A DNA stretch of 24,766 bases from a virus: positions 1 through 24,766 of IMG/VR virus record IMGVR_UViG_3300032298_000173; one strand, written 5' to 3'. The notes beneath the pieces were generated by a model that saw only the letters and a list, made by a program, of their open reading frames with translations, did no database searches and was not told the origin of the DNA. The number at the start of each line of letters is the position of its first letter. The stretch's first letter is position 1. Position numbers and translations under genes: made by a program. This document shows, piece after piece, positions 4,196-24,518 of the stretch.

Positions 4196-4313
4196 ATTGC
4201 TGGACCACAGCTTTGGTGAAGAACCGCTGTACCGCGCTTGCGGCCAAAACGGTGCCCTCTGCCGATATACCAACGATCTTTGGCAGGCTGAAATTTACGT
4301 GCAGTATTACTGA
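4143..4313 (+). CDS. 56-aa hypothetical protein
   Basis: Small ORF with a composition like a real protein: GDGRWIELLDHSFGEEPLYRA, then YTNDLWQAEIYVQYY. It overlaps the preceding gene by 53 nt if the ATG at 4143 is used. An internal ATG at 4167, with an AGGAAGG-like sequence ending 11 nt before it, would give 48 aa and a 29-nt overlap and may be the real start. It is the last + strand gene before the opposite-strand HNH island, whose end it overlaps by 7 nt. Confidence 0.45.
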   Translation: MERKVLDRMDRGDGRWIELLDHSFGEEPLYRACGQNGALCRYTNDLWQAEIYVQYY

Positions 4314-4627
4314 GTAAGCCACGAGTCGATGGCTTCTTCGCGAGTCAGGCTGTGAAACGGCTGAGCACGAAACCATTCGCGCCAATCACGATGCCCTTTG
4401 CTGCCGTTGCACATGATGCAAGCGCCGCAGAGATTTTCTGGCACGGTTAACCCACCCATAACCTTGGGGATGATGTGGTCAAGCGTGGCGCTGCGGGGAC
4501 CCAGTTGCTCATTGCAGTAGGCGCAGCAGTAATCACTGCGAAGCAGCACGGCATCACGCCATCGCCGCTTCGCCTCCTTCCTCGGTATCAATGTTGTCCC
4601 GTCGATTTGATGATCCACTGTTGGCAT
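4307..4627 (-). CDS. HNH endonuclease
   Basis: 106-aa HNH nuclease encoded against the surrounding operon. Motifs: C35-x2-C38 (zinc), L-D50-H51-IIPKVMGG (first catalytic His), ENL with Asn66, and C70-x2-C73-N74-x-SKG (second zinc pair and end of the beta-beta-alpha fold). The C-terminal DWREWFRAQPF tail is typical of short HNH proteins of cyanobacteria and cyanophages. The ATG at 4627 is preferred; the frame is open much further upstream but that part is low-complexity and overlaps the 76-aa ORF. Its location as a reversed insert suggests a homing-type or mobile nuclease. No Shine-Dalgarno seen. Confidence 0.85.
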   Translation of the reverse strand: MPTVDHQIDGTTLIPRKEAKRRWRDAVLLRSDYCCAYCNEQLGPRSATLDHIIPKVMGGLTVPENLCGACIMCNGSKGHRDWREWFRAQPFHSLTREEAIDSWLTQ

Positions 4628-4784
4628 CTGGCAGGGGAAACATTTCGATCTCAAGCGACAGCAGATCATCCTCGTTCTCGATGAACTCGGTGATCCGTGC
4701 ATACATGTCTGCTGGCAGCTCTTCGGGGTCAGTCTCCGAACGAACCACCACCAGGGCAGTGATCTCGAACAGATATGGCTGCAC
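4554..4784 (-). CDS. Acidic 76-aa hypothetical protein upstream of HNH
   Basis: Starts at a GTG (4784), the only start between the upstream in-frame stop (4809-4811) and the conserved-looking core. The sequence is protein-like: PYLFEITALVVVRS, then an acidic stretch DPEELPADMYARITEFIENEDD. It overlaps the HNH gene by 74 nt in another frame, so the two are probably co-transcribed. Unknown function; such a small acidic partner could be a regulator or simply cargo of the HNH island. Confidence 0.5.
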   Translation of the reverse strand: MQPYLFEITALVVVRSETDPEELPADMYARITEFIENEDDLLSLEIEMFPLPDANSGSSNRRDNIDTEEGGEAAMA

Positions 4785-4856
4785 GGAGCAGTTGCCGCTG
4801 CCTCTAGGTTAGCCAACGGGCACAAGCGTAAAGAATTGCAACAACACTGCCAGACG

Positions 4857-4898
4857 CGCCGCCTGCGGCGTATTCTGTCTGCACGGGAGGCAACTCCC
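4857..4898 (+). promoter_or_regulatory. Two tandem hairpins ahead of the 52-aa membrane protein gene
   Basis: Within the 132-nt gap between the HNH island and the next + gene there are two perfect 5-bp hairpins: CGCCG-CCTG-CGGCG (4857-4870) and GGGAG-GCAA-CTCCC (4885-4898, a GNRA-type loop). Neither is followed by a T-run, so they are not ordinary terminators. They may be a leader RNA structure or protein-binding site for the gene starting at 4917. A TATTCT at 4871-4876 could be a -10 element, but no convincing -35 was found. Confidence 0.35.
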
Positions 4899-4916
4899 AC
4901 AATTAAATGGAATCAA

Positions 4917-6490: not shown

Positions 6491-7006
6491 TCAACCCTTG
6501 CTCGCCGTAACGCCAAGATCAGCGTTGTAGCGGCCAGTTTGGGCATATGTGCGTTCTGGGGTGCCGGATACCAAGATGAATTTCATCTGCCCAATCCGCA
6601 TTCCAGGCCAAATTGGCAACGCATTCAACCGCCTGCTGTTCTTCAATTCCATTGTCAGCCGAGACCCATACCAACCGGGATCACACCAACCAGCCTCGGC
6701 GTGGTCCCAACCATCACGGGCACGGCTTGACTTCAGCACGAACTGGGCACCGACGTAATCAGGCAGGTGGAAGATTTCCCTGGTTTCAGCAAGGAAGAAT
6801 TCACCCGGCTTGATCCAGTACGGTTGCTCTTCGCTGTAATTATGAATGCCGGTGATCTCCAGTTCACGGGTGCCGGTGACCTCGATCATGATCCGATCAC
6901 CAAGTGTTACATCCAGTGATGCTGGGTTGAGGTGCTCTTCTACGTAAGGCGTGACCATCTGCTTCTTTTGGCAGAGGCGTCGGATCTCAAAATCAGGTAG
7001 CAGCAC
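6491..7006 (-). CDS. dcd: dCTP deaminase
   Basis: 171-aa protein of the dCTP deaminase/dUTPase trimeric family, converting dCTP to dUTP (some homologues go on to dUMP) for dTTP supply. Motifs: NPASLDVTLGD (27-37), IKPGEFFLAET (65-75), KSSRARDG (92-99), AGWCDPGWYGSRLTMELKN (105-123) with the catalytic Glu120 of the LTMEL strand, and PGMRIGQMKF (134-143). The C-terminal lid is GVTASKG. Slightly shorter than the roughly 190-aa E. coli enzyme. Start is GTG; the frame is closed by a stop four codons upstream. Notably it lies at the end of the late operon rather than with the replication genes. I cannot decide whether it is mono- or bifunctional. Confidence 0.92.
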   Translation of the reverse strand: MLLPDFEIRRLCQKKQMVTPYVEEHLNPASLDVTLGDRIMIEVTGTRELEITGIHNYSEEQPYWIKPGEFFLAETREIFHLPDYVGAQFVLKSSRARDGWDHAEAGWCDPGWYGSRLTMELKNSRRLNALPIWPGMRIGQMKFILVSGTPERTYAQTGRYNADLGVTASKG

Positions 7007-7031: not shown

Positions 7032-7721
7032 CTAAGCGATGATGCACCATCCTGAGCTGGGTCCATCGACCATCCAACGCGGCTCGAAGGTTTTGTAGTC
7101 GTAGTGTTGCTTGGCGCCAAAGGTGCTGCCATACTCGCCGGTCGCCACGTTCATAGCGCCCCATGGATCGTGGACGATGTAGGAGCCGCGCTGGTTGTTA
7201 TACCCGATGATGCACAGCCAGTGGCCACCACCTGATGGTGCGTTGGCCGTGCCATGGTGCAGGAACCCCGCAGGCACCGGTTTGCCTGCATCAATCTGCT
7301 GTTGTACCAAGGCACGATTGCCGTTGGTCTTGAACCGTGCATCAAGTCCGTAGTGGTGCAACGCCTTGATCTGCACGGTTGAGTTGGTCGTGTCCCCGAT
7401 GGTGAACACCGTTTTGATGTACTCGTCGTCGGAGTGGATCACACCCGGCTTGAGCGTCATCAGCAGCATGGCGCAGCTTGAGCTGAAGCATGTCCGCCAA
7501 GCATCGCGGTAATTGTCCCGCTGGCTTTGGTACGGCGTTGGCAACGGGTTGGTGATCTGCTGCTTGCCAGCTTGACTCCAGGTCTTAAACCACGCCTGCT
7601 CGCGGCCAAGGATGTTGGGGTTGGCTTTGTTGATGGCCTCCTCCAGCTTGGAAATGGCAGCCATCTGGTAGCTGAGACCCTTATAAAACTTGCAAAGGTC
7701 AATCAGTTTGATGTTGCTCAT
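7032..7721 (-). CDS. C39-family peptidase-like protein, candidate endolysin
   Basis: 229-aa protein with a papain-like C39 peptidase fold (Peptidase_C39_2 type). YQSQRDN (64-70) supplies the oxyanion Gln67; CFSSSCAMLL (78-87) holds the likely nucleophile Cys78; GGHWLCIIGYN (165-175) has His167; IVHDPWG has Asp185. An N-terminal helical region (about 1-50) precedes the catalytic domain. No signal peptide. Located after small membrane proteins at the distal end of the late operon, it may be the endolysin cleaving peptide cross-links, or a tail-associated peptidase. ATGA-coupled to the upstream gene. Bond specificity cannot be told. Confidence 0.75.
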   Translation of the reverse strand: MSNIKLIDLCKFYKGLSYQMAAISKLEEAINKANPNILGREQAWFKTWSQAGKQQITNPLPTPYQSQRDNYRDAWRTCFSSSCAMLLMTLKPGVIHSDDEYIKTVFTIGDTTNSTVQIKALHHYGLDARFKTNGNRALVQQQIDAGKPVPAGFLHHGTANAPSGGGHWLCIIGYNNQRGSYIVHDPWGAMNVATGEYGSTFGAKQHYDYKTFEPRWMVDGPSSGWCIIA

Positions 7722-9849: not shown

Positions 9850-10902
9850 TTAGGTGGCAATAATGCCAAGGGTCCGCAGTTTTGCCAATAAGTCATTTAA
9901 CTGCGTAATTACGTCAACGGCAGTAGTGGCATTAGCTACAGCAGCGGGTTGCACCACAGGAGTGGAGTTATAGAAGCCCAGTTTTTGCGTGGTAGCTGTG
10001 CCGATTTTGGTGCCAGTGGTGGTGCCAACGGTGATGTTGCCAGCATCGGCCACCTGGAGCACACCTGCGCTGGTAATACGCAGCCTCTCCGTAGGACTAG
10101 CCGCGCCGTCGGCAGTAGTGGAGAACACTAGGCGTGATGGTTGACTACTGCCAGAAGTCCACGTTCCTCCATCCGCAAAAGCGCCAATGTAGGCAGCAGC
10201 AACATGACCTGAATCAGAAAACCCGATGTTTCCCAGGTTGTCGCTTGTAATTCCAGTATTGCTACCACGCGCTAGCAGAATATAAGAATTGCCTGTTGGC
10301 GCCGCAGAATTACCAGTAAAAACAGCACGGGCAACTTCAGACGTAGAAGACGTGCCAACTAAGAGCCTGCCGCTGGAGTCGATGCGGGCGCGTTCGGTAT
10401 TGTTAGTAGCAAAAACAATAGGGTAATTACCGCTATGCCAAATGTTAAAAGAATATGGCGCACCCAATCCACCAGCGCTACTGTCAAGCCCTATGTAGCC
10501 GGTTCCACCAGTATTGTTTACCCTTAAAAAAGCATTATTTGTACCAGTTGAGGAGGTTACATTGATATTGCCCTGAGGAGCAGATATATCAAGTGTGTAG
10601 TTAGGCCCAGTAGTGCCAATCCCTAACCTGCCGCTGGAGTCGATGCGCATGGCTTCAACGCCACCTTCAGCAAATGCCAGCGTGTCTGCTGCTGGGTTGA
10701 AGATGCCGGTGTTCGGGTCGCCGTCAAAGCTGAAACTTGGTGCGGCGGCCGAACCAGCCGGTGCGCTGGCAAGCAATTCGCCGTAGGTGATCTTTTTGTT
10801 TTTATCGGCTGCTGCGGCCTCACTAATATCAACAATCGGCAGCACGTCACCAGTGGCTGGTGCTGTCAGCGCCGTCAGGTCCGTAATTCTGCGGTTAGCC
10901 AT
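9850..10902 (-). CDS. Tail fibre protein (350 aa)
   Basis: Tail fibre with the common N-terminal attachment motif (MANRRITDLTALTAP, then GDVLPIVDIS) and a shaft of SSGRLGIGT-type beta repeats: AMRIDSSGRLGIGT (about 84-97), ERARIDSSGRLLVGT (about 170-184) and ERLRITSAGVLQV (about 270-282). The C-terminal segment GTKIGTATTQKLGFYNSTPVVQP and a helical LNDLLAKLRTLGIIAT end are shared by many phage fibres. It probably forms a trimer and contacts the host surface. A smaller partner of the 564-aa fibre encoded upstream; the two share the repeat type but not their C-terminal domains. Confidence 0.8.
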   Translation of the reverse strand: MANRRITDLTALTAPATGDVLPIVDISEAAAADKNKKITYGELLASAPAGSAAAPSFSFDGDPNTGIFNPAADTLAFAEGGVEAMRIDSSGRLGIGTTGPNYTLDISAPQGNINVTSSTGTNNAFLRVNNTGGTGYIGLDSSAGGLGAPYSFNIWHSGNYPIVFATNNTERARIDSSGRLLVGTSSTSEVARAVFTGNSAAPTGNSYILLARGSNTGITSDNLGNIGFSDSGHVAAAYIGAFADGGTWTSGSSQPSRLVFSTTADGAASPTERLRITSAGVLQVADAGNITVGTTTGTKIGTATTQKLGFYNSTPVVQPAAVANATTAVDVITQLNDLLAKLRTLGIIAT

Positions 10903-10925
10903 AAGAGTTCTTGCGTAGTGAAAGT

Positions 10926-11165
10926 CTAGCTCTGGATGTCAAGAGCTACCTTGATTTCATCCGCATTGTCGGCATCATCGATGGCGTCTTGCACCAGTGC
11001 GTACTTGTCGCGGATGGCTTGGCGGGATGTCTCGGCGGCTGTGTGATCAGCGCCGGGAATCTGCTTGCTGATGATCGCGTCAAGCGGTGCAAATTCAGCC
11101 TCCCGTTGAGCGCGGCGCAGTTGATGGCCGATGGTCTTGGCCTTGTCCATGTTGATGGTGATCAT
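10926..11165 (-). CDS. 79-aa fibre-adjacent hypothetical protein
   Basis: Helical and charged: MITINMDKAKTIGHQLRRAQREAEFAPLD, then SRQAIRDKYALVQDAIDDA, ending DIQS. Proteins of this type lie next to tail fibre genes in many phages, so a fibre chaperone or structural role is plausible but unproven. ATGA-coupled to the upstream gene. Confidence 0.65.
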   Translation of the reverse strand: MITINMDKAKTIGHQLRRAQREAEFAPLDAIISKQIPGADHTAAETSRQAIRDKYALVQDAIDDADNADEIKVALDIQS

Positions 11166-11428
11166 TGGTCGGCCTCTAGGGTGGCGAAATAGGCATCGGC
11201 ACCAAGGCCGTAACCGTCGGGGGTGCTGAAGTCAGCTTCCCAGGCGCCACGGAATGTCCGATCCGCTGGGATGTCCGCAGCATCAATGAGCAGGTAGGGG
11301 ATGCCTGCCGGTACATCCTTCCGGGCGACGTCCTCGATGGGAAGTTCACTTGTGGGAATGATGACGCTGACGCCGCCAGACTCGTTTTGAAAAATGATGC
11401 GTGAGGTGGTCATGGTTGTGGTTGTCAT
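11162..11428 (-). CDS. 88-aa fibre-adjacent hypothetical protein
   Basis: Contains RIIFQNESGGVSVIIP, VARKDVPAGIPYLLIDAADIP and RTFRGAWEADFS, a conserved pattern in small proteins coded between phage tail fibres. Possibly a fibre assembly factor. The Thr-rich start (MTTTTMTTS) contains two candidate ATGs (11428, 11413) and no Shine-Dalgarno distinguishes them. Confidence 0.65.
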   Translation of the reverse strand: MTTTTMTTSRIIFQNESGGVSVIIPTSELPIEDVARKDVPAGIPYLLIDAADIPADRTFRGAWEADFSTPDGYGLGADAYFATLEADQ

Positions 11429-11434
11429 GATGGG

Positions 11435-13129
11435 TTACCGGAAGATGGCGACATCAATCTCTTGGAAATCAGTAAATGCGGAATCTGTATAATTAACGGT
11501 GCCAAATGTTATTGCAGTAGTTGTTTTTGTTGTTGTGCCCCTCAGTGATCCTGAGCCGAAGGCGGCTACTCCAGCTGTTTCAGGAAACACATTGACAAAG
11601 GTTGCATAATTAGCATCCGCCAACGCCGTCGTGAAGTTCACCGTATAGTTTCCAGTGCCATTATCCGTAATGCTGCTCACGTTGCCACTCGCCCGGATCG
11701 CAACCGTACCCGTGCCATCAAAGTTTACCCACGCACGAGCTGAATACGAGGGAGCAGATCCCGATGCTGTGGATAGTGCTGCTGGAGTTCCCCAGGCTGG
11801 TAACGCGCTGGCCCCTTGACTGACCAGGACCTGTCCTGTTGTGCCGTAGTTCGCACCACCAATACCCAGTTGACCTGCACTCCCGATTCTGAACCGCTCA
11901 GTATTCGTAGTGCGGAGAGAGATTGCGGCGGCATCTTCTGTTTGCAACAATAAATCACCCGTGCCACGGTGAGTTACGAACGACGATGTGTTGGCACCCG
12001 AATTGCCCCGCATCACTCTCAACCCATAATCTGTATAGGTTGTGTCACCAACTAAATCGACAAAGGCGTATTGGCTGGTTGTTGTCCCTTGGCCTAATTC
12101 AATGGTGGAGCTACCACCTTGATTAAGAATTCGTGCGCTACCTCCTTGAACGTCAAGTTGATAGCCGGGAGTAATGGTGCTAATGCCTACGCGGCCTATA
12201 GTGTCAACAGTAATGTAATCAACTTCGGTTCCAGCGACAGATTTAGATAGTTTGAAAGCATGGTCAGTGCTTGTTTTTTGACCAAGCAACCATTCGGCAG
12301 TTGCTCCACCGTTATAGAGGTGATAGCGGGCTTGCCCTGCTGTGGATGGAGCAATGCGTATGTTGCCAGCTGTTGCACTTGCGGCGGGAAAGCGGACGTC
12401 CAGACTTGTACCTGGGGTGGTCGTACCAAGGCCCACATTGCCGTCTGCTCCGACCGTCACCCGGTCGAGGTTGCTGGTTGCAAACGTGATTCGCGCTGCC
12501 TCTTCAGCCGCAATTACAAAAGCACCGGTGCCGCGATGCCTGATGCTGGCAGTGCTATTGGCCCCACCGTTATCTCGAATCAGTCGTAAACCATAGTCCG
12601 TGTAGGTTGTATCACCAACCAAGTCAAGGTTGGCGTATTGGTTGCCGCTTGCTCCAACGCCCACCTCAAGTGATGTGCCAGCGCCGCCAGCAAACACCCT
12701 TGCATTGCCGCCTTGAACGTCGAGCCGATACCCAGGAGACGTGGTCCCAATTCCCACATCACCCGAGCTGCCGATGTGGATCCGTGATGTTGAGTTGGTC
12801 GTCAACCCCAGCGTGTTGCTTGCTGGCGAAAAGATCCCATTGGCGACACTGCCAGCCGTACCTGTGGCATTGACGGAGAAGTATTGAGCGGCGGCGGTGC
12901 CGGTGACTGAAATGGCCGGGAACGCAAACGTGCTTGACAGTGCGCCCCAGGCGCTGCCCGTCCACTTTTGCCATGTGTTAGATGCACTGGTCCAGCGAAT
13001 TGCACCCGTTGGGATGTTGGTGCTGGTGGTCCCGTCAAACTGCAACGCCAAATCGGTGTCGCGGCTTTTGACCTCAGCCAAAAAATTGGTGTAGGTGCTG
13101 CTAAGCGTTGGCAGGGACCAGTCAGCCAT
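11435..13129 (-). CDS. Long tail fibre with internal duplication (564 aa)
   Basis: Fibre encoded directly after J, with no gap to its stop. The N-terminal region (1-75) includes the TGAIRWTSASNTWQKWTGSAW module seen at the base of fibres. The shaft carries GIGTTSPGYRLDVQGG-type repeats, with a roughly 105-residue module present twice (about 131-237 and 320-424), both containing LDLVGDTTYTDYGLR or VDLVGDTTYTDYGLR. The C-terminal part (about 455-564: PSYSARAWVNFDGTGTVAIRASGNV and NYTVNFTTALADANY) is the widespread receptor-binding tip type. Likely the main host-recognition fibre attached to the J hub. Confidence 0.8.
   Translation of the reverse strand: MADWSLPTLSSTYTNFLAEVKSRDTDLALQFDGTTSTNIPTGAIRWTSASNTWQKWTGSAWGALSSTFAFPAISVTGTAAAQYFSVNATGTAGSVANGIFSPASNTLGLTTNSTSRIHIGSSGDVGIGTTSPGYRLDVQGGNARVFAGGAGTSLEVGVGASGNQYANLDLVGDTTYTDYGLRLIRDNGGANSTASIRHRGTGAFVIAAEEAARITFATSNLDRVTVGADGNVGLGTTTPGTSLDVRFPAASATAGNIRIAPSTAGQARYHLYNGGATAEWLLGQKTSTDHAFKLSKSVAGTEVDYITVDTIGRVGISTITPGYQLDVQGGSARILNQGGSSTIELGQGTTTSQYAFVDLVGDTTYTDYGLRVMRGNSGANTSSFVTHRGTGDLLLQTEDAAAISLRTTNTERFRIGSAGQLGIGGANYGTTGQVLVSQGASALPAWGTPAALSTASGSAPSYSARAWVNFDGTGTVAIRASGNVSSITDNGTGNYTVNFTTALADANYATFVNVFPETAGVAAFGSGSLRGTTTKTTTAITFGTVNYTDSAFTDFQEIDVAIFR
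11858..12172 (-). repeat. Fibre shaft module, copy 2
   Basis: Encodes residues 320-424 of the 564-aa fibre. It is homologous to 12419-12739, with the best-conserved core LVGDTTYTDYGLR followed by HRGTG. Confidence 0.75.
12419..12739 (-). repeat. Fibre shaft module, copy 1
   Basis: Encodes residues 131-237 of the 564-aa fibre; the partner is 11858-12172. Both start with PGY-LDVQGG and end at a GLGTT/GIGG turn. Confidence 0.75.
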
Positions 13130-17475: not shown

Positions 17476-18166
17476 GACGCAACCTCCTTCCTGTGCATTT
17501 TAGTAGCCAGCCGCCATATAAATCACGTGATGACAGCCGATGTTCCAAGTGATGCAAAACCAGCTGCTCGCCTAGGTAGACCCCGCAGTGGTTCAGGCCG
17601 GGTGCGCTGATTGACATCAGCAGCAGATCGCCAAGTTCTAATTCTTCGTTTTCTTGAAGTTCGCGGAAACCAGTTGCCCGCCAGCAACCGTCAAACATTG
17701 GTGCTGCCAAAAAAGCATCTGGATTGCGGGGACGTTCCCAGTCGCGCAGGATGATGCCTTGTTCTGCGTACCAGTCCCGCGCCAATGTCCAGCAATCCTG
17801 TACAGCCCACACCCATTCACGGCCAATCAGCGGGGCCTTGTACCCGCAGGGTGTGTAGGTGCCCCATGCTTGGGTCTTGGGGTTGACGATGTGCCATGGC
17901 AATTCGCTTGCCTCTGCTGCCACCTTGTCTGCACCGCTGGCCAAGGGCATCGTTACCGGATGGCTATGCACGATGGCCGTGATCTCGCCAGCATCCTCAG
18001 CAGTAGCGTAATCTTCAGGGTCAAGCACAAACATTTCCGTGGGACTGCTTGCCAAGTTTTTGCAAGGCCAGTAACGTTCACGGCCTTTGATCACCACGAT
18101 CACGCCGCAAGATTCCCGTGGATCTTCCGCTTGCGCATGTTCTAGTGCAGCATCGCGCCAGGTCAT
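17465..18166 (-). CDS. K: Tail assembly protein K (JAMM + NlpC/P60)
   Basis: 233-aa lambda gpK-like protein with two enzymatic domains. The JAMM/MPN metalloprotease is at about 1-110, with Glu18 in ESCG, HSHP (His67, His69), Ser77 and Asp80 forming the ExnHxHx7SxxD signature. The NlpC/P60 cysteine peptidase is at about 118-233, with Cys125 in [10 protein letters not shown], His193 in NHCGVYLG and a following His205/206. It likely cleaves the peptide part of peptidoglycan or processes tail proteins during assembly and entry. ATGA overlap with L and 11-nt overlap with I keep the L-K-I-J order of lambda. Confidence 0.92.
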
Positions 18167-19587
18167 GAGCTGTAACTACCCACGCCAGGGAAACTGCCAA
18201 AGGGCAGCTCTGCATCCGGCTCCCTAAAGGCATAGTCGGTGTTTGCTGAGAACGTGTAGGTTCCCAAGGCTGGCGATGCCGGCATGAAGTTCAGCGTCAC
18301 CAGGGCCCCATCTTCTGGCGTTGGCGGTGCAGTCGTCAGCGTGATGCTGACACCAGCAGAGACAGCGGCGACAGTGGTGTTGATGCCAAGCGACCCGAAG
18401 ACGCGCATCCCAACCACGATGCCCGTTGTATTCGTGAGTTTCACTACATCGGGAGGGTTTAAGTAGAAATAACCAGGGATCACCTCATACGTCCCAGAGC
18501 GGCTAAAACTGTAAGGCCGCTGGCTCAGGGTCAGCGTGTAGCCTGCAATTCCCGTGATTGTGGCACCATTCATGTAGGTGCCTGCAACGGTCATGCCTAC
18601 ACCTACTCCAGTGGGATCGGTCACGGTCAACGTTGCAGCCGTAGCCGATGGGGTTGCTGCTGTTGCTGCGCTACTGGAGGCTGTGGCATTGGCGGACAGC
18701 ACCAGCGTGGTGGAGCTGCTTACGCTGCTTACCGTAGTGCCAACTGGCAGGCCCCAGCCACGCACTAGATCACCAGGCAAAATCGACGTCGTACTTGCCA
18801 TGGTGAGAGTGCTGCTGCCAATGGCGACCGTACCAGTGCGGGTGTACACGCTAAATCTTGTCTGGCAACTATCAAGACGCTTGCCACATACATCCAACTC
18901 CAGCGACCCAACCGGGTTGTTGTTTACGTCGTAATACCCTGCCTTGTTGTAGCTGCATTCAGTGGAGCGGTAAACCCACTGACAGATGTTTGATAGGCAC
19001 TGGCGTTTGGGTGCGCGAACACCTACCAGGTCAAAACTTGCGGCAAGTTCAAATTCAACAACTTCGCGGTTTTCGGCGGATTTACGATCAACGTAGTAAA
19101 TTTCTCGGGGGAATTCCGCAGTGGGATCTGGTGTCGCGTACGGGTTTTCGCCTTCTTGATAGATAAATGTGTCGTCTTCGTACAGAAGAACAGAGTTGTC
19201 TTCAGTAAGTAGATAATCAATCGAAGGAAAATTATTTCCGTCGATGTATCTGGCTAGCGTCCGAATGCGGGTAACCTTGGCGCCTTCCAGCCCGCTGGGC
19301 AGTGACAGGATCAGCGCTGTGATGGTGCCCATGATATTGGACACCCGGATTTTGGGTCTGGGGAGCTGACCATTCCCGGAATACTCAAAACCCTCGGCCT
19401 CCAAAGGCATTGCTTGGTATGTGTTCCCAGCCCAAATCACATTGCCGTTATCTCCAGTTACGTTGGTGCCAGCGTGGAATCTGTAGATGTCATTGACGCC
19501 GTGCATCCTGGCATTTAGTTCCAGCTCAAACAATTCAATGAGTGCGCTGGGTGCTATTGATTGCAGTTCTGCTACAGGAATTGCCAT
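18163..19587 (-). CDS. L: Minor tail protein L with large repeat insertion (474 aa)
   Basis: Lambda gpL-type tail tip protein that binds an iron-sulfur cluster in lambda. The core is recognisable: [11 protein letters not shown] near the start, [37 protein letters not shown] (about 157-182), cysteines C197, C202, C211, C234, C241, and the C-terminal LPFGSFPG. The family is normally about 230-240 aa. Here about 210 extra residues (246-457) separate the Cys region from LPFGSFPG and hold three similar beta repeats, and a shorter insert (about 122-147: [21 protein letters not shown]) interrupts the NFP...PDPTAEFP stretch. It overlaps M by 1 nt and K by 4 nt. Confidence 0.9.
18217..18852 (-). repeat. 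Insertion of three beta repeats inside L
   Basis: Encodes L residues 246-457. The repeat units are about 252-302 ([26 protein letters not shown]), 319-356 ([25 protein letters not shown]) and 381-420 ([25 protein letters not shown]), sharing the pattern T..G...GM.V.G....TTV..V....TL.L. Confidence 0.75.
19153..19215 (-). repeat. TED/LLYED coding repeat, copy 2
   Basis: Encodes L residues 125-145. The partner segment is 8437-8499 at the 3' end of the 54-aa protein gene. Confidence 0.6.
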
Positions 19588-19955: not shown

Positions 19956-22903
19956 TAGCGTCGGGTGTTGGCTAGAAGGCCACCAGGGCGTTGTTGTTTC
20001 ACCAATTCTGCCTGAACTGCAGCGGAAATGACAACACCAAGTTGTTTAGCCTGGGCTTGGTCGCTTTCAACGCTAGTGCCACCTGCGTCTACGTTGACAA
20101 CCACGTTGGTGGTGCCGCCGCCTGACGCGATCACGCCCAGCTTGCCATTAGCGGCACGCTGTAGCGGCATGATGGCCTCTGGACCAGCTTCACCCATCAA
20201 GCCGGTGCCGTTTGCAAACGGGAAGATGGTTGGCCGGTTGACCACGCCACCCATGGCAAATTTTTGAATTCCGTTTTGGTTAAATATGTTGCCATTGGCG
20301 CTAGGAGTAAAATTGCCAATTGGTATTGATTTATAAAAATCACCACTTATGGCAGGCACACCGGAAGCAGCACTGCTTCCAACAAAACCAATCGCCTGCA
20401 TAATTGCTTTAAGCACAAATTGCTGAATAATCATTTGTGCGGTTGCTTTAAGAATGCCAGCCGCAAATTCACGGAAGTTGGCAGTGCCATTAATTGCAAG
20501 GTTAGTAATTGAATCTCCAAGTGACTGGAAACCTTGTTGCGCCAAATCACTCGTGGCTTGCCGAAGCGTGCCAAGGCTATCTACATAAGAATTGGCACCT
20601 TCGCGGAATCCAGCGCCAGCATTTGTTGAATCACGCAAAGCAGTTGCATAATTCTGTGCGCTTTTGGCAGCTTCATCAAAACCGGCCGCCACTTCAGACA
20701 TCTGCTCAAAAACTGCCGTGCCAAATTCACCCTGTGCAAGCTTCATGGTTTCAGCTTGGACTTGATCTTGCGCTTGCCTAAATTCTTTTGCTTTCTGGGG
20801 ATCGACCTCTGCGCCAAGCTTGGTCATGGCATCAATCCGTTTTTGCAACACGTCCGTAAGACGAGCACGGTCTTTTGCAATTTTGTCAGTATTTGCAACG
20901 TATTGTAAATAAATTGCGTCTAGCGGTTTGGCAACCGCAATGGCACCTTTGTTTTGAATGTCAACAATGTATTCTTGCAGCTTGCGAAGATCAATTACAA
21001 ATGCTTTTTGCTGATCAACAATCCGCTCTTGCCGTGTCTTTTCACGCTTGGCAGCAGCGGCGGCTGCTTTGTCTGCCTTGGCAGAGCTGCCATCTCCACC
21101 ACCGCTCAACCCCAATCCTTTACCAGGCTCACGAAATGGCGTGCCCAATGCTGTGAGCATTGTCCTGTTAGCCAAAAGCCTCGCCTCCAGTGGAGCATTC
21201 ATGCTTTTGGCAAAGTTAGCTTTTTGTGCATCAGACATGCCTGCTTGGCCTTGCTTGTACCCAGCCAACAATTTCTCATCTGCTGCAATTTGAGCTTTAA
21301 GCGAAGCTTTCCTGCCAGTAGGATCCAGTTTTAAAAATGCGTTTAATTTGCGGATAGCTGCATCAATAATTTCAGCGACAAACGAAAATGTATTTTGAAA
21401 TGCAGCGCCAATTGGCTTTAGCAATGTACCAACACTTTCCGACAAACTTGCAAGTGTTGTCTTAAGGCGATTGCCTGCGTTTTCTGGGCTGCTTGCAATA
21501 ATTTTTGCGGCTTCTCCATAGCGGTCAAACAAAGCCTTAGTAAATGTTTGAAAATCGGTAAGGGAGACTTTCCCTTCTTGCAGCATTTTATCCAATTCTT
21601 GCGGAGTCTTTTTCATTGACTCTGCAAACAAGGTAAACGCACCGGGCAAGCGTTCACCAATTTGACCGCGCAATTCTTCAGCGCTTACCTTGCCTTTGCT
21701 GAATACTTGCGATGTTGCAAGCAATGCCGCATCAAGATTTTCAAGGCTTCCACCAGTGCCAAGAATACCAGCAGAAATTCCTTTAAATGCTTGCTCTGCA
21801 TCCTTTACATTGCCACCAGCTCCAATTACAGAAGCAGACAAACGTGTAAAGTTTTTAAGAACTATGTCCTGCGGGATTGCAAGTTCTTTGCTTGTTTGAC
21901 TAACAAATTTTAATGATTGATTGTAACCATCTTGAGAACCAATAACTTGACGCAATGCTGTGCGTTGCTTTTCAAGCTCAGCCGCATAGGTGGCGGTTGC
22001 ACCAATAGCTTGCCGCACAATGCCAACAGTAGCGCCGACAGTGGCGCCCACTTGCGCACCAACAGGGCCGCCAAGAGCAAAGCCTGCGATGCCACCTAAG
22101 GCGCCCTCAGGGCCGCCAAAGATGCCTCCAGCAGCGGCGGCACCAAGACCACGGGCAACGCCTGCTCGGCCACCGTAACGCCCTGGTGCTGCTTTACCAG
22201 CAGGTTGTGGACCAATGGGTTGTGCGTATTGAGTCCCAACCCCCATAAACGGTCCGTAGCCACCGGCAATCATTGCGCCTGTGCGCGGGTCTCTGCCCCC
22301 AATCGTGGTGTCAGCGTATTCAGCCAAGCCCTGCATCTTCTGTGCCCGGCGTGCTTCCCTAGCAGATTGAGCAGATGCACCAGCAACTTGTGCTTGGATG
22401 CGTGCGTCTTGTGCAGAAAAATCAAACCCTTGTGCAGGTGGCAACAACCTTCCACCCATTGGGACTTCAACTGACGGCATCGAGTATGCCCCAGTCAATG
22501 GGTTGCGGATCAAACCGTTGTAGCTGCGTTGTGCAGCAGCAGCAGCATTGGTTGCACGGGTGATCCGGTTGAATCCCTGCGTTACAGCGTTCTGCTTGCC
22601 TTGCAGTGCCCCAAGCTCACCATCAAGCTGCTTGATCTCAAGCGTCAGCTCATTAAATGTGGTACTGCCAATCTCAGCAGACTGACGCAAGGCGTCTAGG
22701 CCAGCGCGATAGTTCTTAAGGTTATTGACAGAACGAAGTGACTCAGCACCTAGCTCCTTAAACATTCCACGCAACTTGCCCAGATCATTGCTGGCAGCCT
22801 TGGATTCAGTAGCAAAATTTCTTACGGCAGATCGTGCGCGATTCAATCCCTCCAGGTTCTCAACCTGGGCCCTGATGCGGAGGATTGTCGCTTCGTTGGA
22901 CAT
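19955..22903 (-). CDS. H: Tail tape measure protein (982 aa)
   Basis: Sets tail length and is ejected during infection. Starts MSNEATILRIRAQVENLEGL (ATG 22903, overlapping the T-domain stop as TAATG), which is preferred to an ATG 14 codons upstream inside the T coding region. An N-terminal helical region (about 1-120) precedes a Gly/Ala-rich hydrophobic stretch (about 246-306). The tape-measure domain follows (about 308-500) with ELAIPQDIVLKNFTRLSASV, KVSAEELRGQIGERLPGAF and EGKVSLTDFQTFTKALF. A Lys/Ala-rich helical part and a second hydrophobic stretch follow, and it ends with GEAGPEAIMPLQR.ANGKLGV as in lambda-type tape measures. The length predicts a tail somewhat like lambda's, about 150 nm by the usual 1.5 Å per residue. 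Confidence 0.93.
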   Translation of the reverse strand: MSNEATILRIRAQVENLEGLNRARSAVRNFATESKAASNDLGKLRGMFKELGAESLRSVNNLKNYRAGLDALRQSAEIGSTTFNELTLEIKQLDGELGALQGKQNAVTQGFNRITRATNAAAAAQRSYNGLIRNPLTGAYSMPSVEVPMGGRLLPPAQGFDFSAQDARIQAQVAGASAQSAREARRAQKMQGLAEYADTTIGGRDPRTGAMIAGGYGPFMGVGTQYAQPIGPQPAGKAAPGRYGGRAGVARGLGAAAAGGIFGGPEGALGGIAGFALGGPVGAQVGATVGATVGIVRQAIGATATYAAELEKQRTALRQVIGSQDGYNQSLKFVSQTSKELAIPQDIVLKNFTRLSASVIGAGGNVKDAEQAFKGISAGILGTGGSLENLDAALLATSQVFSKGKVSAEELRGQIGERLPGAFTLFAESMKKTPQELDKMLQEGKVSLTDFQTFTKALFDRYGEAAKIIASSPENAGNRLKTTLASLSESVGTLLKPIGAAFQNTFSFVAEIIDAAIRKLNAFLKLDPTGRKASLKAQIAADEKLLAGYKQGQAGMSDAQKANFAKSMNAPLEARLLANRTMLTALGTPFREPGKGLGLSGGGDGSSAKADKAAAAAAKREKTRQERIVDQQKAFVIDLRKLQEYIVDIQNKGAIAVAKPLDAIYLQYVANTDKIAKDRARLTDVLQKRIDAMTKLGAEVDPQKAKEFRQAQDQVQAETMKLAQGEFGTAVFEQMSEVAAGFDEAAKSAQNYATALRDSTNAGAGFREGANSYVDSLGTLRQATSDLAQQGFQSLGDSITNLAINGTANFREFAAGILKATAQMIIQQFVLKAIMQAIGFVGSSAASGVPAISGDFYKSIPIGNFTPSANGNIFNQNGIQKFAMGGVVNRPTIFPFANGTGLMGEAGPEAIMPLQRAANGKLGVIASGGGTTNVVVNVDAGGTSVESDQAQAKQLGVVISAAVQAELVKQQRPGGLLANTRR

Positions 22904-23570
22904 TACTTCCCGTTCTGGCTGTTCATTTGGCTGAGAGCGGCGCACTCCATAATTTGGATGCCCTCAAAAATCCTGACCGGATCTGCCACTTCGTACAGTC
23001 TACAGATCCATTCCAGCGAGCTGTAATTGAGACCCATGGGACCAGCCATGCTTACGTTCCACTGGGTTCGCATCCGCAGGAATACGGCAACGATTTCCCA
23101 GTTCTCTTCCCATACTTCAAAGCGCTGCTCAGCCGGTGAAAGCTCAGCAGCGGCAATGTCAGCGGAAGAGAGGCCCAGCGCAGCCAGGTCGCTCTCACGT
23201 TCGTCTACAACGCCGCCCTTTGCCCAATACTGAGCAGCGGCCTCTAGTTTTTTGCAGCACCGCCGCTGAGGCTGTCAGCGTAGGCTGTGATCAACGCACG
23301 TACCACGTAGGGATCGTCGCAGATCTCTTTCTTTGACTTGGCAGTAAAAGGAATCTCCTTGCCTGCTTCGTCAAAAATGCCCTCCCAACCTTCAAGGATG
23401 CTTTCGATCAAAGCATCGTCACCTTTGTCGACCAAGTCGTTGAAACTTGATCGACTCATCTTGCGAAAGGTTGCATCAAACGTAGTTTTTTCAAACTTGC
23501 CGCCATCAATGGGTGTTTCCACCGCGACGGGCCATTTGTAAGATGCAACCTTTTTAAGAACGAATGCCAT
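22903..23570 (-). CDS. Tail assembly chaperone G-T, -1 frameshift product (222 aa)
   Basis: Extended chaperone made when ribosomes slip -1 at AAAAAAC (23253-23247). After the slip the frame continues as KLEAAAQYWAKGGVVDERE and stays open for 114 codons to a TAA at 22905-22903 that overlaps the tape measure ATG. The extension contains WEIVAVFLRMRTQWNVSM and GPMGLNYSSLEWICRLYEV, matching the DUF1799 T-domain type. As in lambda, G-T would bind the tape measure and recruit tail tube subunits during assembly. Without the frameshift these 340 nt would hold no gene and the T domain would have no start codon near its beginning, which supports the reading. Experimental frameshift efficiency is unknown. 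Confidence 0.85.
23244..23570 (-). CDS. Tail assembly chaperone G (108 aa)
   Basis: The unshifted product, ending at TAG directly after the slippery heptamer. The sequence has the compact chaperone pattern: MAFVLKKVASYKWPVAVETP, GGKFEKTTFDATFRKMSRSSFNDLV, then LIESILEGWEGIFDE and PYVVRALITAYADSLSGG. It lies between tail tube and tape measure, the standard location. Starts 6 nt after the tail tube stop. Confidence 0.9.
   Translation of the reverse strand: MAFVLKKVASYKWPVAVETPIDGGKFEKTTFDATFRKMSRSSFNDLVDKGDDALIESILEGWEGIFDEAGKEIPFTAKSKKEICDDPYVVRALITAYADSLSGGAAKN
23247..23253 (-). promoter_or_regulatory. Programmed -1 ribosomal frameshift site (A AAA AAC)
   Basis: Heptamer AAAAAAC in the exact X XXY YYZ register of G (codons AAA AAC) followed immediately by the TAG stop. 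Seven nt further on, a 10-nt arm CGCTGCTCAG (minus strand, 23239-23230) can pair perfectly with CTGAGCAGCG (23132-23123); a shorter 5-bp GCCGC/GCGGC stem is also possible 5 nt after the heptamer. Either could stimulate slipping. Confidence 0.85.
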
Positions 23571-23576
23571 GCAGAA

Positions 23577-24518
23577 TCAGGTGAAAACTAGGCTCACCTC
23601 ATTATTGCCTGCTGTGGTGGGAAGTGCCAAGTAGGGCATGGACAGCGAGACAACACCGTTGGTGTCGCCGTAGGTGCAGCCAGTGATGTCGGTCTGCGGT
23701 GCGTTAAGGGTGACAATGTTGCCACCGGTAGCGCCCAGCACGATGGTGCTTGCTGCGGTTGCAGGAGCAACGGCTTTAGCAAAGAAATCAGTGGTGCCAA
23801 CGGCAGGCGCTTCGACCACTGCTGTGCCACCAGCGGCACGATCAGTAATCAGCACTTCTTGGCTGGAGCCGGTTTCCTTGTAAAGAAGTGTGTTGTTCAG
23901 CGCAAGATCAATGCTCTCAAGGCGAGTGCTTGTGACGCCGTGGAATGTGCAGGTGGTGACGTTGGTGTCGTTGACTTCCAGTGCAGCAGCTTGGTTGGCA
24001 ACCGTAAAAGTACCAGAAGCAGCCGTGCCGTCAGGAGCGTTGTAGATCCCGATGAACTGGAAGCTGGCGGTCGGGAACTGCCCAGCCGTCATGTTGAAAG
24101 TCACCGTGCCACGGGCACCAGTGATTTTGTGGCGAGTGCCGTCGTAGAAGCAGTACAAGGAAGCGCTGGAGAAACTGGCGCTTACGCCTGCATAGGTAAC
24201 AGATGTGCTGCTTACAACCACTTCGCTCATGCCAGCAGCTTGAAGCAACGGGCCAAAAGCAGGAGCCGTTCCAGCCGTTCCAGACCCGCCTAGTTCGACT
24301 TCAAAAGTTACCGAAACCCGCTTGTTGGCAACCAACGTTCCACGGGTGCTGTTACCAATGAAGCCTTGGTATGACGCCGCCTGAACGTTGTCTGACTCGA
24401 TAGGAGTCACCTCAAGATTGGTGACCTGAATGGCATTGCTACCACCAACAGGGATTGAATCCGTCCCGTAGGTAGCCTCAATCTTCGCGAGCAGAAACTT
24501 CTTCCGTGTCAGAGCCAT
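23577..24518 (-). CDS. Major tail tube protein (313 aa)
   Basis: Forms the tail tube. The N-terminal pattern ALTRKKFLLAKIEATYGTDSIP, then AIQVTNLEVTPIESDNVQ, RGTLVANKRVSVTFEVEL and ARGTVTFNMTAGQFPTASFQFIGIY matches the phage tail tube family (Phage_tube_2 type), where the polymerising beta-barrel lies in the first half. The C-terminal 100 residues are Ala/Thr/Val-rich beta strands, probably an outward-facing Ig-like decoration. It is encoded between a 50-aa ORF and the G chaperone, as expected. No Shine-Dalgarno is seen; its start lies inside the 50-aa ORF, so translational coupling is possible. Confidence 0.9.
   Translation of the reverse strand: MALTRKKFLLAKIEATYGTDSIPVGGSNAIQVTNLEVTPIESDNVQAASYQGFIGNSTRGTLVANKRVSVTFEVELGGSGTAGTAPAFGPLLQAAGMSEVVVSSTSVTYAGVSASFSSASLYCFYDGTRHKITGARGTVTFNMTAGQFPTASFQFIGIYNAPDGTAASGTFTVANQAAALEVNDTNVTTCTFHGVTSTRLESIDLALNNTLLYKETGSSQEVLITDRAAGGTAVVEAPAVGTTDFFAKAVAPATAASTIVLGATGGNIVTLNAPQTDITGCTYGDTNGVVSLSMPYLALPTTAGNNEVSLVFT

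Follow-up and report, generated by a model that had tools for sequence, protein, structure and literature searches.

The DNA analysed here, referred to as the window, is the 24,766-base sequence of an uncultivated virus record, which represents a siphophage. Between its genes for the major tail tube protein and the tape measure protein lies a small tail assembly chaperone gene, G, followed in the -1 frame by a second coding region, T (Table 1). In Pfam searches the domains Phage_tube_2, Phage_TAC_4, DUF1799 and TMP_3 stand in that order. Beyond the tape measure gene come M-like (Phage_min_tail), L-like (Phage_tail_L) and K-like (NlpC/P60 and JAB) genes, an ORF in the position of I, for which no Pfam match was found, and a J-like gene. 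The order of the tail genes is lambda-like.

Table 1. Positions of the G-T features and the flanking tail genes in the window
Feature	Position	Strand	Evidence
Major tail tube protein (lambda V position), 313 aa	23577..24518	(-)	Phage_tube_2 E 3.1e-14; phrog_290
Gene G, tail assembly chaperone, 108 aa, frame 0	23244..23570	(-)	Phage_TAC_4 E 9e-5; phrog_569 E 1e-19
SD-like element position, putative 5' stimulator	23261..23264	(-)	GGAG/GGGG in most relatives, 7 nt upstream of heptamer
Slippery heptamer A AAA AAC	23247..23253	(-)	Sequence; invariant in 128/128 distinct relatives
Frame-0 stop TAG adjoining heptamer	23244..23246	(-)	Stop straight after heptamer in 128/128 distinct relatives
Predicted stem-loop, putative 3' stimulator	23209..23244	(-)	Minimum free energy (MFE) structure of window
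T domain, -1 frame, 114 aa and TAA stop; proposed G-T fusion of 222 aa	22903..23247	(-)	DUF1799 E 7.7e-16; phrog_680 E 1.1e-26
Tape measure protein (lambda H position), 982 aa	19955..22903	(-)	TMP_3 E 1.9e-23; Tape_meas_lam_C E 2.4e-12

Some other genes of the window are recorded here as side observations. The L-like minor tail protein (18163-19587, (-) strand; 474 aa) has a Phage_tail_L match split into two stretches, and at roughly residues 250-440 there appears to be an inserted Ser/Thr/Ala/Val-rich, repeat-like segment. Two proteins after J (9850-13129, (-) strand; 350 and 564 aa) have repeated G-IGTT-P---LDV motifs and no Pfam match; they are perhaps tail fibre proteins. Downstream of the tail module are genes, all on the (-) strand, for an HNH endonuclease (4307-4900), a dCTP deaminase-like protein (6491-7006) and a C39-like peptidase (7032-7721).

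The Phage_TAC_4 match spans the full length of G and lies slightly over the Pfam gathering cut-off. The 3' end of the gene reads GGT GCT GCA AAA AAC TAG. An earlier note on this DNA had claimed that G ends in AAA AAC TAG with an in-register A AAA AAC, and the sequence at 23253-23244 on the (-) strand agrees. The heptamer consists of six A and then C, and because AAA and AAC are frame-0 codons, it is in the register for tandem -1 slippage. The TA of the TAG stop doubles as part of CTA (Leu), the first codon of the -1 frame. The other AAAAAAC within G, at 23491, serves as an internal contrast, since it is out of register (GAA AAA ACT).

The -1 frame begins at the heptamer's C with CTA (23247-23245) and runs for 114 sense codons (LEAAAQYW...SQNGK). 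It ends in a TAA (22905-22903) that shares its final base with the tape measure ATG (TAATG, a one-base overlap). These coordinates match the earlier note's description of a 114-codon open frame ending in a TAA that overlaps this ATG. From base composition alone, a frame of 114 codons is expected to be open by chance in ~0.6-2% of trials, so its length is only moderately telling, and conservation is decisive. GPMGLNYSS, which the note had singled out as a DUF1799-like motif, is found in the T translation, and the profile search that it suggested establishes the similarity of the 114-aa extension to DUF1799 (58.5 bits against a Pfam cut-off of 26). All 43 aligned T domains match DUF1799 as well. 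When the window was compared with 12 relatives, pN/pS was 0.30-0.50 in the T frame versus about 0.75-2.1 in the other two frames. Low pN/pS confined to this frame is direct evidence that it encodes protein and marks T as being under purifying selection. The earliest ATG, GTG or TTG in it is codon 59, which lies within the DUF1799 match and leaves 56 aa. An ordinary gene caller would therefore miss most or all of T, as the note had said.

An AlphaFold model of T made with 43 sequences (pLDDT 86, pTM 0.72) matches the predicted tape measure chaperone of Enterobacter phage F20 (E 2.4e-5). Further matches are to the predicted tape measure chaperones of Klebsiella phage Solomon, Caulobacter phage CcrColossus and, weakly, Acinetobacter phage Loki. 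Sequence comparison with the PDB gave no structure resembling T or G, and fold comparison gave none resembling T. Lambda T belongs to Phage_tail_T (PF06223), and an hhalign comparison of lambda T with the DUF1799 alignment gave a probability of 0.5%, i.e., no detectable homology between the T domains. Since the families here are Phage_TAC_4 and DUF1799, and not Phage_TAC_2 and Phage_tail_T as in lambda, the likeness to lambda is limited to position and mechanism. The note's statement that the arrangement is known from lambda and relatives stands in these two respects, but does not extend to detectable sequence homology with lambda T.

To assess conservation, we used IMG/VR regions found with T or G, counted as distinct G-T regions (n=128), with identities of 49 to 100% in T and 45 to 100% in G. 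The note had made its reading depend on the heptamer being kept in relatives, and it is intact in every one: in each of the 128 regions T lies in the -1 frame, the heptamer is A AAA AAC without variation, and the frame-0 stop follows it directly. Neither this constancy of the adjoining stop nor the flanking elements described below had been remarked on in the note. We also compiled a wider set of 126 DUF1799 loci, in which rows are distinct T sequences and not clusters. In this set a heptamer directly adjoins the stop in 84 loci (A AAA AAC in 65, G GGA AAC in 19), and 14 others have A AAA AAC one codon ahead of the stop. The remainder have G GGA AAC at -31 (8 loci), A AAA AAG at -37 (3), A AAA AAA (1), no recognised heptamer that we could find (13) or a site that is not assessable (3). 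Isolate genomes are represented by S-CBS1 (A AAA AAC TGA), PS-1 (G GGA AAC TAG) and RC1 (G GGA AAC TGA). A scan of genome contigs yielded five bacterial loci with 32-49% identity, from which no host assignment resulted.

Several details of the wider set deserve mention. A AAA AAC TTA TAG is the commonest departure from the adjoining stop among S-CBS1-like loci; the subgroup comprising L257, L260, L266 and kin has A AAA AAC, this one sense codon (TTA) and then TAG, and is without the SD-like element. In the group L201-L221 (around position 1453) G ends in GTG CAA AAG TTT AA, without an X XXY YYZ heptamer, and judging from this sequence these loci may use a different shift site or type of shift. 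The T domains of S-CBS1 (gp14, L161:3070-3333) and PS-1 (gp65, L162:1567-1815) are annotated as separate truncated ORFs, both labelled tail length tape measure protein in their records; the labels are probably mis-annotations of a G-T fusion.

We interpret G and T as a lambda-type tail assembly chaperone pair produced via programmed -1 ribosomal frameshifting, and we hold this interpretation with high confidence. What is observed directly is how the sequence is built, which families its products match, that the site is conserved and that selection acts on the -1 frame. One published property of the site counts against frameshifting: in E. coli, A AAA AAG shifts more readily than A AAA AAC (PMC5009743).

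The best-surviving alternative is transcriptional slippage, in which RNA polymerase would stutter on the six-A run and alter its length in the mRNA, so that standard translation would yield G-T. The site is indeed a homopolymer run of six A, and poly-A runs can slip. However, the runs at which such slippage has been described in bacteria are about nine A or T long (PMC5009743), and the heptamer is identical in all 128 relatives. Moreover, PS-1, RC1 and kin have G GGA AAC, which lacks a long homopolymer and keeps the X XXY YYZ pattern. Because exchange between A6C and G3A3C preserves tRNA re-pairing and not the homopolymer, we favour ribosomal slippage and regard the transcriptional explanation as very unlikely.

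Even less probable is that T is a separate gene with its own start site and is not fused to G. The T frame does overlap G at its end, and it is annotated as an ORF of its own in some records (S-CBS1 gp14, PS-1 gp65). However, the window's first possible start lies inside the DUF1799 match, a start codon occurs within +28 of the G stop in only 2 of 40 window-clade representatives, and more than 90% of T could be made from its own start in 3 of 40. In addition, all 43 aligned T domains begin with the same residue, Leu. That a sequencing error or gene decay split one ORF by a one-base change in a homopolymer is scarcely credible, given that the split, although it sits at an error-prone A run, is common to 128 distinct regions and to the isolate genomes S-CBS1, PS-1 and RC1, and that the T frame is constrained.

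Two candidate stimulatory elements flank the heptamer at this locus. The first is upstream of it. When G genes were grouped at 90% identity, the window clade was represented by 38-40 sequences. Of these, 35 have Gly at the codon 18-16 nt ahead of the stop, and 31 of the 35 use GGA or GGG for it, versus 38 of 254 at other positions in G (Fisher p 2.5e-18, uncorrected for shared ancestry). With the next G, such a codon forms GGAG or GGGG. Calculated pairing with the 16S anti-SD is stronger than in synonymous-codon shuffles. The z-score is about -8 for the window clade, -5 for the S-CBS1 clade and -2.9 for a mixed third set, and the excess falls at the same position in all three. Initiation of T does not explain this bias, because nearly all window-clade representatives are without a T-frame start codon near the element. 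The window's own copy is degenerate (GGCG, within GGC GGT) and a weaker match than those of its relatives. The spacing of 7 nt is also closer than the 9-14 nt published for SD stimulators of -1 shifts (PMC5009743). Because of the short spacing and the degenerate copy, we regard the element as a putative 5' stimulator of slippage.

The second candidate is the predicted stem-loop downstream. From an alignment of the window clade without gaps, RNAalifold recovered hardly any consensus stem, since the GC-rich stem changes register from one member to the next. We therefore used a synonymous-shuffle test, comparing the 47 nt after the G stop with synonymous recodings of T (60 shuffles per clade). 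The mean fold energy was -16.4 versus -11.6 kcal/mol in recodings for the window clade, -17.0 versus -11.8 for the S-CBS1 clade and -15.0 versus -11.6 for a third clade, and none of the 60 shuffles reached native stability in any of the three. For the window alone, the z-score against its own shuffles is about -1.1. Compensatory change in the stem-loop is scarce. A search of 22800-23700 against Rfam returned a single chance snoRNA match, far under threshold. In most relatives, the SD-like element and the stem-loop exceed what the coding sequence requires.

Under the frameshifting interpretation, the majority of ribosomes would translate G and stop at the TAG after A AAA AAC, releasing the 108-aa protein. 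A small fraction would slip back one base, as the tRNAs for Lys and Asn leave AAA AAC and pair again with AAA AAA, and would then read from CTA in the -1 frame to give the 222-aa G-T fusion. The slip is probably aided by the upstream SD-like sequence, weak in the window, and by the downstream stem-loop. By analogy with lambda, G may coat the tape measure protein, the T part of the rarer G-T may recruit the tail tube protein, and the ratio of G to G-T may control tail assembly. It is important to emphasize that we infer slippage itself, how efficient it would be, what the stimulators do and which roles the products have.

A more speculative extension is that DUF1799-type phages have in common a compact three-part cassette, in which an SD-like sequence lies 7 nt ahead of a heptamer that runs directly into the stop, with a 3' stem-loop after it. 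The stop would occupy the A site at the moment when both tRNAs are ready to slip, so that the ratio of G to G-T, and hence tail assembly, could be set by the amount of release factor available or by which stop codon is used. We consider this extension possible but rather doubtful.

Frameshifting in tail chaperone genes is already known, and a heptamer right before the stop has been published for phages Loki and KL1. The observation made in the note is genuine and was rightly interpreted, and it is of an ordinary kind. Our literature search found no paper that treats DUF1799 together with a frameshift. It also found no description of family-wide conservation of the adjoining stop with SD-like and stem-loop elements; only open-licence papers were covered, so this is weak evidence. 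The analysis restores a gene that would be lost in automatic annotation and gives an uncultivated phage group its pair of tail-assembly proteins. Because well over a hundred related contigs have this site, a single rule, namely a heptamer adjoining the stop together with a -1 frame that encodes DUF1799, could serve to annotate many phages in one step. The flanking elements, which are conserved, also offer a natural series for studying how an A-site stop and an upstream SD-like sequence tune -1 frameshifting.

Among known systems, lambda G/G-T likewise lies between the major tail protein and the tape measure gene and consists of a small chaperone and a rare -1 fusion. The end of T overlaps the start of H there, as T overlaps the tape measure gene here. 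Lambda G binds the tape measure protein and T the tail tube protein, at about 30:1 (PMC5009743). However, the lambda heptamer is G GGA AAG and begins 22 nt before the stop, whereas A AAA AAC adjoins the stop here. In HK97-like phages, chaperone shift sites gave 6-7% in assays (PMC3711429), and Caulobacter phages phiCbK and Colossus have A6C/G3A3C sites (PMC3556154).

The dnaX-type cassette of E. coli, in an unrelated gene, combines a 5' SD-like element, a heptamer and a 3' stem-loop, parts to which the heptamer and the putative stimulators here would correspond. Its heptamer is A AAA AAG, with about 50% efficiency and an SD spacing of 9-14 nt, in contrast to A AAA AAC and 7 nt here. In some bacteria, a frame-0 stop directly follows the dnaX shift site (PMC5009743).

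Closer likenesses are found in other phages. Published -1 fusions are proposed for gp12/gp13 of Acinetobacter phage Loki, with AAAAAAC directly before the stop of the shorter chaperone (PMC5313236), and for gp18/gp19 of Burkholderia phage KL1, with GGGAAAC in that place (PMC3483164). The heptamer thus adjoins the stop as here, but an extra gene separates these chaperones from the tape measure gene; the stimulator analysis, in the passages covered, consists of mfold stem-loops for KL1. In Synechococcus phage S-CBS1, gp13/gp14 was annotated as two separate ORFs without a frameshift, and T is only 33% identical. Its arrangement is nevertheless that of the window: A AAA AAC adjoining the stop (TGA), a DUF1799-type extension and then the tape measure gene.
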